From an uncultured bacterium (GTDB lineage: Bacteria; Cyanobacteriota; Vampirovibrionia; Gastranaerophilales; Gastranaerophilaceae), in contig CASEVT010000090.1 of the NCBI GenBank assembly GCA_949291445.1, forward strand, positions 1 through 35,666: DNA of 35,666 nt, read 5' to 3'. A program made the position numbers and the translations under genes. Shown piece by piece: positions 4,816-13,802 of this stretch; the stretch's first letter is position 1, and each line of letters begins with the position of its first letter. Under the pieces are notes generated by a model that saw only the letters and a program-made list of their open reading frames with translations, had not been told where the DNA came from and ran no database searches.

Positions 4816-6981
4816 TTATTTGCCGCAAGAACAGCATTCGCTACCGCATCCGAAGTATTCTTTTACTTCGTTTACACGTACCTTAATACGACCGTCAACT
4901 GCTATGCCTTCACCTGTTTTTTCAGAGATGAGCAGCGGATTTATATCCAATTCATCAATAAACTTGAAGTCATTAACCAGTTGTGACAATCTCAATAATG
5001 TTTCTTGTATTTGTTCCATTTGTGCCGGTTTTGTGCCTCTTGCACCTTTCAACAATTCGTATGCTTTAACAGATTTAATCATTTCATCTGCGTCAACATC
5101 CGTTAACGGTGCAATTCTAAAGGTTACGTCTTTCATTGTTTCAATGAATACACCGCCCAGACCGAACATCATCATTGGACCGTATTGCGGGTCAGTTGCA
5201 ATACCGCATACCATTTCACGGTTGCCTTTAACCATTTCTTGAATAATTACACCTTCAAGCCCGTCTATCAGACCTTTTTCTGTTAATTTTGCTATAAGAT
5301 CTCTGTATTCTTCTCTGAGTTGTTCTTCAGATTGAATATTGATTCTTACGCCGCCAACATCGGTTTTGTGTGAAGTAGTTTTTGATGTCATTTTCATTAC
5401 TACCGGATATCCGATCGAGTTACCGAGATTTGCAACTTCTTCTTCATTCGTTGCAAGTCCGTATTTGCAAGCTCTGATTCCGTAAGCATCCAGTACATCG
5501 ATTGATTCCAATGTTGTCAATTGAGCACGTCCGTCTGCTACTGCACCTTTGATTATTCTTTCTGCCTTTGACTTATCTACATCATAAACAGGAATCTTTC
5601 CTTCAGGTCTTTGCATCCAGAGTCTTTGTTGATTCAATCTGTTGAATCCGTCTGCTGCTTCTTCTGCATACATAAAGAACGGCATATTTACATCCATATT
5701 AGACAGTTGTGTAAAGAATTCGCTCTTTGTCATAAATACGCCGATTATCGGTTTTTCAGGATTTTTAGCTTTTATTTCCATCAATGCTTTTGCGACATCG
5801 ATATCTTTCAAGCCCAAGAACGGCAAGTAGATAACTGCTATCATATCGACATTTTCATCGGCAATAACTGTTTCCAGTGTTTGTTTGTAGTGTTCGATAG
5901 GTGCTGATGCTATCATGTCTATCGGGTTTTTAACACTTGCTGCTGCCGGCAGGAAACTTCTTAGTTTTTCTTTTGTTGCATCGGTAATTTTTGCCATTTG
6001 CAATCCGTATTCGCACACGGCATCCGTTGCCATAATTCCGGGACCGCCTGAGTTGGTTATGATTGCTACTCGGTCACCTTTCGGGATTGGTGATGTTGCA
6101 AACACTTTCGCTGTTGAAAACAGATTTTTCAGTGAATATTCTCTTATTACACCTGATTGTTTCAAAAGTGCATTAGCTGCTTTATCTGCTCCTGCAAGTG
6201 AGCCTGTGTGTGATGATGCTGCTGATGCGCCCGCTGCCGAACGACCTGCTTTGAGTGCTAAAACCGGTTTTTTCTTGGTTATTCTTGATGCTAATTTTCT
6301 GAAATTAGACGGATTTTGGATTGATTCCATATATAATAGGATTTGTTCAACATCGTCTTCATTTTCCCAGTATTCCATTGCTGTTTCTGCGTTGATATCA
6401 GCTTGGTTACCGATTGAAATGAATTGTGCAAAACCAAGGTTTAAGTCTTTCAAGATGTTCAAAATACCGCCGCCCAGTGCGCCTGATTGAGATACAAATC
6501 CGATGTTGCCTCTTTCGGGCAATGATTCTGCAAAACATCCGTCCATTCTGATGTCCGGTGCTGTGTTTACTACACCCAGACAGTTCGGACCTACGCATCT
6601 CATTCCGTATTCTTTTAATTTTGCTACCAGTTGTTTTTCAGCTTCGGCGCCTTCCGCTCCTGCTTCTTTGAAGCCTGCTGAGATTATGCATATTCCTTTG
6701 ATTCCCTTTTCGTGGCAGTCGTCTATTGCTTGCAATACAAATTTTTGTGCTATTACTATTATCGCAAGATCAACTTCGCCCGGGATTTCTTTTACGTTTG
6801 TATATGCCTTAAATCCTTCGATTTCTCCGCCTTTTGGATTGACCGGATAGATATTTCCCGTGAATTTATATTCTTTTAATCGTTTCATTATATCAGAACC
6901 GATTGTGTGATCTTTTGTTGATGCGCCTACTACTGCGATTGCTTTTGGACGCATGATTTTGTCTAGTTGTTCTTTTAGCAT
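4816..6981 (-). CDS. Acetate--CoA ligase (ADP-forming), fused alpha and beta subunits
   Basis: This family converts acyl-CoA, ADP and phosphate to the acid, CoA and ATP, which conserves energy in fermentation. The 721-residue protein has an N-terminal CoA-binding Rossmann domain (residues 1-130), a succinyl-CoA-ligase-like region and a C-terminal ATP-grasp domain (about 490-705). H258 in SSHTGSLAG is the expected phosphohistidine, and H538 in TSHKTDVGG matches the second, beta-subunit histidine. There is no acetyltransferase domain, so it is not a Pat-type protein acetylase. The last residues carry four cysteines (712, 716, 717, 719) in a short tail that the fold does not need. The ATG follows AGAAAGGTGAC. 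It is monocistronic and convergent with proS. The acyl substrate cannot be told from sequence. Confidence 0.9.
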   Translation of the reverse strand: MLKEQLDKIMRPKAIAVVGASTKDHTIGSDIMKRLKEYKFTGNIYPVNPKGGEIEGFKAYTNVKEIPGEVDLAIIVIAQKFVLQAIDDCHEKGIKGICIISAGFKEAGAEGAEAEKQLVAKLKEYGMRCVGPNCLGVVNTAPDIRMDGCFAESLPERGNIGFVSQSGALGGGILNILKDLNLGFAQFISIGNQADINAETAMEYWENEDDVEQILLYMESIQNPSNFRKLASRITKKKPVLALKAGRSAAGASAASSHTGSLAGADKAANALLKQSGVIREYSLKNLFSTAKVFATSPIPKGDRVAIITNSGGPGIMATDAVCEYGLQMAKITDATKEKLRSFLPAAASVKNPIDMIASAPIEHYKQTLETVIADENVDMIAVIYLPFLGLKDIDVAKALMEIKAKNPEKPIIGVFMTKSEFFTQLSNMDVNMPFFMYAEEAADGFNRLNQQRLWMQRPEGKIPVYDVDKSKAERIIKGAVADGRAQLTTLESIDVLDAYGIRACKYGLATNEEEVANLGNSIGYPVVMKMTSKTTSHKTDVGGVRINIQSEEQLREEYRDLIAKLTEKGLIDGLEGVIIQEMVKGNREMVCGIATDPQYGPMMMFGLGGVFIETMKDVTFRIAPLTDVDADEMIKSVKAYELLKGARGTKPAQMEQIQETLLRLSQLVNDFKFIDELDINPLLISEKTGEGIAVDGRIKVRVNEVKEYFGCGSECCSCGK

Positions 6982-7094
6982 TTTGTCACCTTTCTTTTTT
7001 ATTTTTTTATTATTTATAATTTTTTATTTTTTCACGATTTAATAAAAATTTAATCCAATCCAATCACTATTATTATTGCTCGAACAAAAATTTT

Positions 7095-7123
7095 GTACAA
7101 ATTTATTGAAAAAAAATTTGTAC
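7095..7123. promoter_or_regulatory. Inverted repeat over the promoter, possible operator
   Basis: GTACAAATTT (7095-7104) is repeated in inverted form at 7114-7123 after nine bases. The repeat covers the -35 element and part of the spacer of the plus-strand promoter at 7106-7133. It lies in the divergent gap before the synthetase gene, so a bound protein could affect either direction. Confidence 0.4.
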
Positions 7124-7133
7124 GGGATACAAT
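7106..7133 (+). promoter_or_regulatory. Promoter of the PRTase-like/radical SAM pair
   Basis: TTGAAA (7106-7111) and TACAAT (7128-7133) are separated by 16 bases. The leader to the ATG at 7245 would be about 105 bases, with no recognised riboswitch in it. Confidence 0.5.
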
Positions 7134-7244
7134 AAAACACGCAACTTTAAAAATTCACGGTTTTTACGCTATTGCAATTTAAAATGATGAGTTCCTGTTT
7201 TCTTTAACGGGCAAAATTATTCTTTGTTTTAGGTTTTATTATTA

Positions 7245-8195
7245 ATGAAAATACCTTCAGTATCCAAATTTACAAATTATATTAAATCCAAAGTCCGAGG
7301 AGTCAAGTCTTCTTTGTCGGTTCAAAACAGGCATGCTGCTGTTGCGGCTTTCAAGCCTGTTATGCATGTTGATACGTTTCGCAGACAAACTTATTCTCAG
7401 AAGATTCTTTCTCAACCGCTTAATGATAATGCAAGTTTTCTTTGTCGGCGTATTTTAAGTTCTGTTGATGAAATTACTCCATCGGTATTTAATAAGTTTT
7501 CAAAGGATGAGATTTCTGTAATTCGTTCTCAAATACCTTCTGAAATGGCTCATCATGCTGAGATTACTGTTGGAGTTTCCAGAGTGTTAAAAAATTATTT
7601 TGATAAAAATTTGAAAAAAGGTAACTATGTTTTTGTTTCTGTTGGGCGTTCTTTTGCTTCGGTTGCTCAATGTCTTAAGTTTATGGGGATTGAGGCGAGG
7701 TATTTACCTCTTTCGGATTTGAGTACTTATGAGGACAGTGTTGCTGAAAGAATGGTTCAGTCTTTCGGTTTTCCTGCTTATAAAGAGTATTTGTATGAAC
7801 TTTTCGGGACTCCGGAGGCTTTGAAAAAAAACAAAAAATACTTTGTTGTCGGTGATTTTTGTATGTCCGGTACTACTCTTGATGTCACTAAAAAAATACT
7901 TTCTCATAATACTGTCGGTTTGTCTTCAAAAAAGATTAAGTATTATAATTTAAATTATTTACTTCAGAAAATTGCGGCGCAAAGAAAAACCAATCCTAAG
8001 GACCACGCTCTTATTGACAATTTTGTTCTTGATGCTGTTTTGCAAAATTATGATGAATATGCTCCTATTCGCCGGTTAAACTGGAAAAGCTTAGGATATA
8101 TCAGGTTTGCTCTGCAATCTCCTAAAACGGATGTTACAAAAAAGTTTCAGTTTTGTCTTTCTGATATACTGTCTGATAATAGTTTGATTATTTGA
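7245..8195 (+). CDS. Phosphoribosyltransferase-like protein of unknown function
   Basis: I do not recognise a named family over the whole 316 residues. Residues 199-212 read YFVVGDFCMSGTTL, which resembles the PRPP-binding loop of type I phosphoribosyltransferases (hydrophobic strand, acidic pair, then SGTT or TGGT), but with GD in place of the usual DD or ED. About 65 residues earlier, VFVSVGRSFASV looks like the preceding strand and loop of the same fold. The first 60 residues are basic and have no signal peptide or membrane segment. Only a weak AGG lies near the ATG, so the start is less certain than for most genes here. The gene is nine bases upstream of a radical SAM gene and probably co-transcribed. 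A catalytic or merely nucleotide-sensing role are both possible. Confidence 0.6.
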   Translation: MKIPSVSKFTNYIKSKVRGVKSSLSVQNRHAAVAAFKPVMHVDTFRRQTYSQKILSQPLNDNASFLCRRILSSVDEITPSVFNKFSKDEISVIRSQIPSEMAHHAEITVGVSRVLKNYFDKNLKKGNYVFVSVGRSFASVAQCLKFMGIEARYLPLSDLSTYEDSVAERMVQSFGFPAYKEYLYELFGTPEALKKNKKYFVVGDFCMSGTTLDVTKKILSHNTVGLSSKKIKYYNLNYLLQKIAAQRKTNPKDHALIDNFVLDAVLQNYDEYAPIRRLNWKSLGYIRFALQSPKTDVTKKFQFCLSDILSDNSLII

Positions 8196-8204
8196 GGTAA
8201 TTTT

Positions 8205-8828
8205 ATGAATAAAAATGTTTATGTATATGTGCTTGAGGGAAAAATTTATATTAATCTTACCAATCTTTGTACGAACAATTGTGTATTTTGTATACGAGAT
8301 ATAAAAGATGACGTTGTCGGGGCAAATTTACGTTTGGATTCCGAGGTTGTCAATGTTGATGAAGTTAAAAAACAACTTTTGGAGTTTAACCCTGAAAATT
8401 ACCATGAAATAATCTTTTGCGGTTATGGCGAGCCTATTATAAAACTGGATGAACTTAAGGAAGTTGCGAAGTTTATTAAAGAAAAATATCCCCACATTAA
8501 AACCAGAATTAACACAAACGGTCAGGGATGTCTCATTCATAAAAGAAATATTGTACCTGAATTGGCAGGAATTATTGATACTGTTTCTGTCAGCTTCAAC
8601 GCTCAGACCGAGGATTTGTACAACGATATTTCTCAACCCAAGTTAAGAGGTGCTTATCAAGCTATGCAGGATTTTATTGTGGATTGTGTAGAAAACGGGA
8701 TTGAAACTTATGCTACAATCGTCACCGGATATAAGGATTATAAAGTCGACAAGGATAAGTGCAAATATATGATTGAAACTCTGGGCGCAAAATTTCGTGA
8801 ACGTCCCTGGATCGAAAACGGATACTAA
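8205..8828 (+). CDS. Radical SAM protein, TatD-linked type
   Basis: Radical SAM enzymes use a 4Fe-4S cluster to cleave S-adenosylmethionine and start radical chemistry. The cluster motif CxxxCxxC is at C22, C26 and C29 (CTNNCVFC), in the N-terminal INLTN-x-C context. FCGYGEP (71-77) is the glycine-rich SAM-binding motif, with the same form as the small radical SAM family often found next to tatD. The protein has 207 residues, close to that family's usual length, and no extra cluster domain. No tatD gene is in the window. GAGGTAATTTT precedes the ATG. The substrate of this family is not known to me. It ends four bases before the stop of the convergent HDOD gene. Confidence 0.82.
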   Translation: MNKNVYVYVLEGKIYINLTNLCTNNCVFCIRDIKDDVVGANLRLDSEVVNVDEVKKQLLEFNPENYHEIIFCGYGEPIIKLDELKEVAKFIKEKYPHIKTRINTNGQGCLIHKRNIVPELAGIIDTVSVSFNAQTEDLYNDISQPKLRGAYQAMQDFIVDCVENGIETYATIVTGYKDYKVDKDKCKYMIETLGAKFRERPWIENGY

Positions 8829-8832
8829 ACCA

Positions 8833-9636
8833 TTAAACCTTTTCATTAAAGGTTACAAAAAATGATTCCATTAACTCGTTCACTTCTTCTTTGAACTGGG
8901 TGATTGTGCTCATGTCTATATTAAACTCTTCCAGTGCACGTTTATCTATGTTGTTTTCTTCGGGTTGGCAAATCTGGTTGGCTATATATATCAAGCAGCT
9001 TGCTTTTTGCATTGATGATGAGAATGGATCGTGGTGGTATTTTATACAATTGGCGAGCAAAACGGGCAGACGCCATCTTTTTACCAGCAAAAATCCTGCT
9101 TCGGTGTGGTTTATTCCAAAAACATTCTCTTCCGCAACAAGTTCATCTTCACCATCTTTCACACGATTCATTACATCTTGATACTTTTGATTACTTGAAA
9201 GATTGAGAATAACTTTTCCTATATCGTGCAAAAATCCGATAGTGAATGCATCTGCTGAATCTATTGTATCTGTGCATTTTGCAATATGTTCGCAGGCTAT
9301 AGCCGCTTTTATGGAGTGTTTCCACATATCTCTGCCGCATTGCGAAGTCAACATCGGTTTTAGGGCAACCGCTATTACTATATTTTTTGTTTGCGTCATT
9401 CCAAGAAGCGCTATTGCATTCTTTATTGAGGTTATCTCCTGCGCAAATCCGTAATATGCTGAATTTACAAGCTTCAATACTTGTGAAGTCAGTGCTTGAT
9501 CGTAGGACATTATTTCCGAAAGTTCTTTTGTTCCTGCTTTATCATCCTTAATTATATTCAATGCTTTGATTATGACGTTGGGCATTGCAGGAACATCTTT
9601 CAGGGTTTGTATTATCTCCAGAGGTGTTTTTTCCAT
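8833..9636 (-). CDS. HDOD domain signalling protein
   Basis: HDOD domains are HD-like helical modules found in bacterial signalling and motility proteins, and most lack phosphohydrolase activity. The 267-residue protein is almost entirely HDOD: LKDVPAMPNVIIKAL near the start, VLKLVNSAYYGF, IKNAIALLGM, and FLHDIGKVIL in the middle. The HD pair in that last motif is kept, so residual metal binding cannot be excluded. There is no receiver, GGDEF or EAL domain. The start is three bases after the ftsX stop, which makes it the last gene of the seven-gene block. Its presence beside ftsEX suggests, but does not show, a link between signalling and division. Confidence 0.88.
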   Translation of the reverse strand: MEKTPLEIIQTLKDVPAMPNVIIKALNIIKDDKAGTKELSEIMSYDQALTSQVLKLVNSAYYGFAQEITSIKNAIALLGMTQTKNIVIAVALKPMLTSQCGRDMWKHSIKAAIACEHIAKCTDTIDSADAFTIGFLHDIGKVILNLSSNQKYQDVMNRVKDGEDELVAEENVFGINHTEAGFLLVKRWRLPVLLANCIKYHHDPFSSSMQKASCLIYIANQICQPEENNIDKRALEEFNIDMSTITQFKEEVNELMESFFVTFNEKV

Positions 9637-12207: not shown

Positions 12208-13056
12208 TTATAGTTTACAAGATTCCAACTCGTTTAGTGCTTTTTGAAATTCTTCGTCATTAGGTGCTTTTCCGTGCCATCCGGCGTTATTTTCCATATA
12301 TGATACGCCCTTGCCTTTTATTGTATCGGCAATTATTGCTGTAGGGGTATCCATTGTTTTTGCTGACATCACTGCGTCAAAGATTTCCTCAACGTCGTGT
12401 CCGTCAATTTCTATGACATTCCATCCAAACGCTTCCAATTTTTCATTTAGCGGCTCAATAGACATTACATCGTCGGTGCAGCCGTCGATTTGAAGTTTGT
12501 TCCGGTCGATGAATACGATCATATTGTTCAATTTTCGATGAGAAGCATTCATAAATGCCTCCCACACGCTGCCTTCCTGAAGTTCGCCGTCACCCATGTA
12601 CACATAAACCGTAGCAGGGTTTTTATCAAGTTTCAGACCCATAGCCACTCCGCAGGCTATTGATATACCCTGACCCAGTGAACCCGTTGAAACTTCTATA
12701 CCGGGAAGGTGCAGGCTGGATGGATGTCCTTGAAGTCTTGTTCCGAGTTTTCTGAAGGTGAGCAATTCTTCTTCCGGCAAATATCCGCAATGAGCAAGAA
12801 TTGAATATAATGCTGCCGATGCGTGACCTTTAGAGAGGATAAATCTGTCTCTTTTTTCAAAATCTGCTGATTTGTTCCATTTTGGGTCGTGCTTCATACA
12901 GTGTTTGTACAACACTGCCATAATCTCTACTGCACTGAGATTGCCGCCGGGGTGGCCTGATTTTGCTGCATGAATCATTTTTATTATGTCTATTCGCATT
13001 TGCAAGCATAACTTTTTCAATTCATCGACCTGTGCCGGTAAAAGTTGTTTATCCAT
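12208..13056 (-). CDS. Transketolase, N-terminal subunit
   Basis: This 282-residue protein holds the thiamine-diphosphate-binding domain of the split transketolase. HAAKSGHPGGNLSAVEI, SKGHASAALYS and STGSLGQGIS are the family's active-site motifs. The GDG(x24-27)N cofactor motif runs from MGDGELQEGS to FIDRNKL. It would pair with the product of the next gene. AAAAAGGG precedes the ATG. The gene starts two bases after the stop of the glycosyltransferase gene, so the two are almost certainly co-transcribed. Confidence 0.9.
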   Translation of the reverse strand: MDKQLLPAQVDELKKLCLQMRIDIIKMIHAAKSGHPGGNLSAVEIMAVLYKHCMKHDPKWNKSADFEKRDRFILSKGHASAALYSILAHCGYLPEEELLTFRKLGTRLQGHPSSLHLPGIEVSTGSLGQGISIACGVAMGLKLDKNPATVYVYMGDGELQEGSVWEAFMNASHRKLNNMIVFIDRNKLQIDGCTDDVMSIEPLNEKLEAFGWNVIEIDGHDVEEIFDAVMSAKTMDTPTAIIADTIKGKGVSYMENNAGWHGKAPNDEEFQKALNELESCKL

Positions 13057-13058
13057 TT

Positions 13059-13802
13059 TTAACCCTTTTTCTGAAAGACTGATTCTATTATAACCCTAAT
13101 CAGGAACATTGGCAAAGCAGGAAAGATCCGTTTAAAACGTTTCGGCTCTTGAACAGTTCTATAGAGCCATTCCAGTCCGAGTTTTTGGTAAATTTCGGGG
13201 GCTCTTTGTACAACTCCCGACCAGACGTCAAAACTTCCTCCAACACCTATAAACACTGTTGAAGGCATATCTTTTTTGAATTTTGAGATTAATAGCTCTT
13301 GTTTTGGTGCGCCCAATGCAATTAGTGCTAAAGAGGGGTTTGATGCTTGCATATCGGTTTTTATTTGCGCTTCTTCATCACTGTTAAAATACCCGTTTCT
13401 GGCATAACAAATGTTAAGATTTTCAAACTCTTTTGTAAGATTCTCTTTAGCCTTTTGCAAGATTTCTTCTTTTGCGCCCAGAAGTGCCACTGAATAACCG
13501 TTTTGGGCGCAAAATTCTATAAGCTTTTTTGAAAATTCAACTCCGGGGATATTCTGCTGGGTTATGCCTTTTATTTTTAGTGCCAGTTTTATTCCTACTC
13601 CATCAGGTATTACTAAATCTGCGTTATTTATTACCTGATAAAACTCATTGTTTTTCTTTGCGGTTTCGGTCATTTCAGGGTTTATTGTCACAATTTGCAT
13701 TCCGCAATTCTCTTGAATATTGCCGCAAGTAAGTTCGTATGCACTTTCAAAATCCAATAAATTTACCGGACAGCCCAATATTTTTGCTTGTTTTTTTTTC
13801 AT
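13059..13802 (-). CDS. WecG/TagA/CpsF family glycosyltransferase
   Basis: Members of this GT26 family add N-acetylmannosamine-type sugars to lipid-linked N-acetylglucosamine during synthesis of teichoic acids, enterobacterial common antigen or capsule. The protein has about 247 residues with the family core TINPEM, then NNADLVIPDGVGIKLAL (an invariant aspartate), VALLGA and an ALGAPKQELL segment, ending with RTVQEPKRFKR. The ATG at 13802 is seven bases from GGAG; another ATG at 13808 is only one base from it, so the first is preferred. In an organism with an outer membrane, an envelope polysaccharide is the likely product. The acceptor is not known. Confidence 0.87.
   Translation of the reverse strand: MKKKQAKILGCPVNLLDFESAYELTCGNIQENCGMQIVTINPEMTETAKKNNEFYQVINNADLVIPDGVGIKLALKIKGITQQNIPGVEFSKKLIEFCAQNGYSVALLGAKEEILQKAKENLTKEFENLNICYARNGYFNSDEEAQIKTDMQASNPSLALIALGAPKQELLISKFKKDMPSTVFIGVGGSFDVWSGVVQRAPEIYQKLGLEWLYRTVQEPKRFKRIFPALPMFLIRVIIESVFQKKG

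Follow-up and report, generated by a model that had tools for sequence, protein, structure and literature searches.

The window analysed here, the whole 35,666-nucleotide contig C90 of the 1.78 Mb genome (G000) of an uncultured gut bacterium (Candidatus Gastranaerophilales), contains two genes on one strand that we refer to as A and B (Table 1). Gene A encodes a PRTase-like protein and gene B a small radical SAM protein; both reading frames, and the 9 bases between them, are as described in the initial annotation. Gene A sits between gene B and a divergent gene for an ADP-forming acyl-CoA ligase, which encodes CoA-binding, Succ_CoA_lig and ATP-grasp_5 domains (Pfam).

The annotation had also assigned to A and B a shared promoter and a possible operator. 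A promoter-like site does lie upstream of A, and it probably serves both genes; the site is conserved in a sister species (G055). No terminator-like site was found within positions 6900-9000. The operator, a TTTGTACAAA palindrome, did not hold up as an element of the pair and was rejected. Based on two exact matches and one alignment, the palindrome more likely belongs to the divergent ligase gene, because it also stands upstream of the ligase gene in another locus (L177), where the ligase directly follows B and A is absent.

Table 1. Features of the A-B locus, with examples of tagged small proteins from other loci (locus:positions)
Feature	Position	Strand	Evidence
ADP-forming acyl-CoA ligase, divergent from A	4816..6981	-	Pfam domains, neighbour surveys
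TTTGTACAAA palindrome	7092..7101	.	exact match also 5' of the ligase gene in L177
Promoter-like site for A-B, TTGAAA-16-TACAAT	7106..7133	+	sequence; conserved in sister species G055
Gene A, PRTase-like protein, 316 aa, lineage-restricted family	7245..8195	+	ORF, profile distribution, structure models
PRTase-like core of gene A, conserved, residues 97-248	7533..7988	+	alignment A3, pLDDT 93.7, Foldseek
G134-R135-S136, pyrophosphate-loop-like motif of gene A	7644..7652	+	relatives' alignment (n=30)
PRPP-loop-like segment of gene A	7839..7880	+	alignment: D204, G209 nearly invariant
Gene B, small radical SAM protein of TIGR04038, 207 aa	8205..8828	+	ORF, profile score, alignment
CX3CX2C cluster motif of gene B (C22, C26, C29)	8268..8291	+	alignment A2
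Small NFxG / KPYDLFI proteins (examples)	L230:6645-7055, L232:6639-7037, L064:6618-7037 and others		alignment A5
Tagged 146-242 aa proteins (examples)	L192:9763-10386, L200:9686-10321, L232:9735-10373 and others

Gene B and its genomic neighbours

Gene B scores 199.2 bits against TIGR04038 (curated cut-off 129.7), which bears out its initial description as a TatD-linked-type radical SAM protein, and 179.2 bits against TIGR04100, short of that model's cut-off of 262. The three cysteines of its cluster motif are invariant in the sequences of 21 relatives. The gene is nearly universal, occurring in 359 of the 383 genomes of the bacterial family and in all 41 genera, as well as in all but one of 117 genomes drawn from across the order, other families included. 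Linkage or fusion to TatD is a naming feature of TIGR04038 that lies outside the model itself. As annotated, no tatD is near A and B; the only copy in the genome is on a different contig (C5). Likewise, tatD was found at none of 100 radical SAM loci of the family and beside B in none of 14 loci from other families. A literature search on TIGR04038, TIGR04100 and TatD with radical SAM yielded no relevant papers.

The neighbour that B does keep is the CoA ligase. We surveyed 86 distinct radical SAM loci of the family with enough downstream sequence, and the same-strand run 3' of B includes the ligase in 60, a small protein with an NFxG tag (see below) in 25, gene A in four (all in one genus, g33) and TatD in none. 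Of 14 loci from five further families in the order, 11 likewise have the ligase directly 3' of B; the association thus goes back to the ancestor of the order. Gene B can be described as a radical SAM gene of the whole order, with an ADP-forming acyl-CoA ligase as its likely ancestral operon partner. Most likely, B works with this ligase rather than with A, perhaps in acyl-CoA or acetate metabolism, or in maturation of the ligase or its substrate.

Small proteins with an N-terminal tag

Of 146 genomes, 51 encode members of the small NFxG family, proteins of about 115-150 aa that start MxVQNISN..NFxG and contain the motif KPYDLFI; the family has no Pfam assignment. In 48 of these 51 genomes, one or more copies immediately adjoin B, mostly directly downstream, as judged by comparing the coordinates of both families by eye. 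Across 24 divergent members, the tag always keeps its F and G. One genome (G127) has two copies before a CoA ligase, without B, and this arrangement, together with the order's other families, weakens the candidacy of the NFxG protein as an obligate partner of B. The genome of the window has a lone copy away from B, among lineage-specific genes (contig C48, positions 12906-13304; L255:3892-4320), which could be the result of contamination or transfer.

The tag has a wider distribution. In 11 surveyed loci, a protein of 146-242 aa encoded downstream of the CoA ligase begins with the same tag and continues with a hydrophobic stretch, and the pattern MxIxxI...FxG recurs N-terminally in several unrelated proteins of the lineage, at many loci (for example L116:6670-7710, L234:3322-4107, L161:1360-3117). 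Internally the pattern is rare (one of 894 other proteins, an internal control); it could be a sorting or processing signal. Part of the tag, the start MKIxxI, is found in 14 of 25 members of the A family versus 73 of 990 other proteins, and the A protein of G019, a congeneric sister species of the window's bacterium, carries MKI...SFRG.

Gene A, a lineage-restricted family

A DNA-pattern scan of the genome contigs with A gave no match because the family is too divergent, and its distribution was determined by whole-genome profile searches instead. These found A in 144 of 383 genomes of the family and in 26 of 41 genera; outside it there was one weak match, in a genome of 6.6 Mb (G189, L257:2698-4149), where the PRTase-like region lies within the C-terminal half of a 483 aa protein. 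Homologues elsewhere adjoin unrelated genes that differ between genera. Tandem pairs are found in three genomes (G441:C3, G549:C43 and G455:C10), and a single 523 aa frame in another (G083:C1) contains two A-family domains. Purifying selection acts on both A and B, with pN well below pS. Within a genus, A accumulates changes at about 4-9 times the rate of B: dN is 0.30 for A and 0.08 for B between G000 and G055, and 0.17-0.47 and 0.04-0.06, respectively, within g33. All synonymous distances are near saturation, making the dN/dS values rough. Gene A belongs to a fast-evolving, lineage-restricted family that is almost confined to one bacterial family and consists mostly of stand-alone genes.

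The initial annotation described A as PRTase-like with an altered PRPP-loop motif, GD for DD. Aligned with its relatives, A shows invariant G134 (n=30) and S157, and nearly invariant S136, P155, D204 and G209. It has 'VVGDFCMSGTTL' at the place of the type I PRTase DD; the first acidic position is non-acidic in the aligned members of the family and the second (D204) is nearly invariant. The alteration is therefore a family trait, and it marks A as a lineage-specific PRTase-like family that has lost the usual first acidic residue.

The assignment to the PRTases stands as the best available match, and a weak one. Gene A scores 13.9 bits against PF00156 (gathering threshold 26.3; E 0.033), and the best family member reaches E 0.0088. 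Comparison with Pfam and curated profiles assigned gene A to no curated family, nor was the A family assigned to any in Pfam, PADLOC or PHROGs; PDB sequence searches with its profiles returned chance-level matches alone (transaldolase, parvalbumin). A structure search with the full-length protein was uninformative, yielding PLP enzymes at poor TM, and the core was therefore modelled alone (mean pLDDT 93.7). Among named PDB matches to this model HPRT chains dominate, with TM scores of 0.40-0.48 and probabilities of 0.90-0.98 for most; their E-values are above 0.008, and no fold match has an E-value below 0.001. The best TM to viral models is 0.57, and a Tupanvirus protein annotated as a PRTase matches at TM 0.50 (probability 0.99). 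The A profile also aligns in register, marginally, with HPRT/APRT of the same bacteria (E about 0.03; reversed controls 0.4-0.9). The PRPP-type loop of A probably serves to bind a phosphoribosyl or nucleotide ligand. The family-wide loss of the first acidic residue makes ordinary PRTase catalysis doubtful.

The A-B pair and comparison with known systems

Reading the coordinate lists of both families side by side, we found that A adjoins B in at least six of the 144 genomes with A, and in 2 of 41 genera, among the matches listed; such rarity was the outcome that the initial annotation had named beforehand as counting against its proposal. The order is A-B in two g1 genomes, that of the window and G055, and B-A in all four g33 species (G033, G064, G091, G111). 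The sister species G019 has B without A beside it, and in G121 the two genes are on different contigs. In the A tree, g1, g33 and G121 form one clade (99/99), within which the G121 gene groups with g33 and not g1; in the clade comprising g1, g6 and g33, none of the g6 genomes examined has A beside B. In g1, the gap of 9 bases, with no terminator-like site, suggests that A and B are co-expressed, and A, having apparently settled beside B in two genera, is probably transcribed together with it here. By our rough estimate, which assumes about 60 independent placements of A, roughly 0.06 events of a second independent adjacency are expected by chance, a figure that decides neither for nor against a functional link. 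Adjacency in two genera, in opposite gene orders, is more than expected of a random neighbour and leaves room for such a link.

How far the pairing reaches is the point on which the explanations divide. The initial annotation had A and B as a candidate small pathway, and guessed at a radical-based modification of a nucleotide or sugar phosphate. In the dedicated form of this idea, B would carry out that modification, and A would bind, produce or use up the compound. Such a pathway would suit the PRTase-like core of A, the close spacing without a terminator, and an adjacency that occurs in both gene orders and is kept by every g33 species. However, most genomes have B without A, most A genes lie away from B, the two genes evolve at rates several-fold apart, and the conserved neighbour of B is the CoA ligase, which the annotation had treated as outside the pair. 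The proposal is mostly unsupported; we regard the pair as real but local, and a dedicated pathway as unlikely. At the other extreme, A could be directed at the host or at competitors, as an effector-like protein of PRTase fold that has nothing to do with B. Its family is fast-evolving, patchy and duplicated, with tandem copies in three genomes and no fixed gene context, and its distant homologue in G189 is the C-terminal part of a longer protein, all of which would fit an effector; but neither a signal peptide nor a secretion gene was identified for A, and none of Pfam, PADLOC and PHROGs assigns it a family. An effector role therefore seems improbable, if conceivable.

The tagged proteins raise a further explanation, in which B modifies tagged proteins, and the position 3' of B is where its protein partner or substrate is encoded: usually the NFxG protein, and in g33 gene A. 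The frequent position of NFxG copies beside B, the invariant F and G of the tag, and the MKIxxI start shared by the A family (with MKI...SFRG in G019) are in its favour. Against it, B and the CoA ligase occur without a tagged protein in five other families and at many loci of this family, the small proteins of G127 stay with the ligase and not with B, and in g1 gene A is 5' of B; we hold it to be quite doubtful. In a broader version, the order-wide radical SAM-CoA ligase operon would be a system of radical chemistry new to science, with B maturing either the ligase or the NFxG protein encoded between them, and A in g1 and g33 would be an alternative tagged client at the same position; this, too, is a long shot. 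We favour, with a probability of about 0.65, the reading in which the partner of B is the CoA ligase, by ancestry, and A is a PRTase-fold neighbour that settled beside B in two genera, probably binding a ligand, with catalysis in doubt. An attractive PRTase-radical SAM pair proves to be a local arrangement, and the radical SAM-CoA ligase operon is the better lead: the TatD-linked-type family gains a testable partner outside the TatD context, beside B across an order of gut bacteria.

Compared with type I PRTases (HPRT/APRT, PF00156), A has the same order of elements, namely a pyrophosphate-type loop, a hydrophobic strand, a variable helical insert and a PRPP-type loop, and HPRTs recur among its fold matches with profiles in register. 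It differs in falling below the Pfam cut-off and below TM 0.5 to solved HPRTs, in lacking the first acidic residue of the PRPP motif, and in having extra N-terminal and C-terminal helices. The ligase resembles ADP-forming acetate/acyl-CoA ligases (TIGR02717-like) in its three domains, but does not reach the cut-offs curated for the named equivalogs, scoring 523 of 567 bits and 597 of 1300. Gene B can be aligned with TIGR04100 (rSAM_pair_X) over nearly its full length, although it does not reach that cut-off. Its match to TIGR04038 (TatD family nuclease-associated radical SAM protein) covers almost all of the protein and exceeds the cut-off, and relatives of B across the bacterial family match the same model; in contrast to the context for which that model is named, the loci of B lack tatD and have an ADP-forming CoA ligase as the conserved neighbour.
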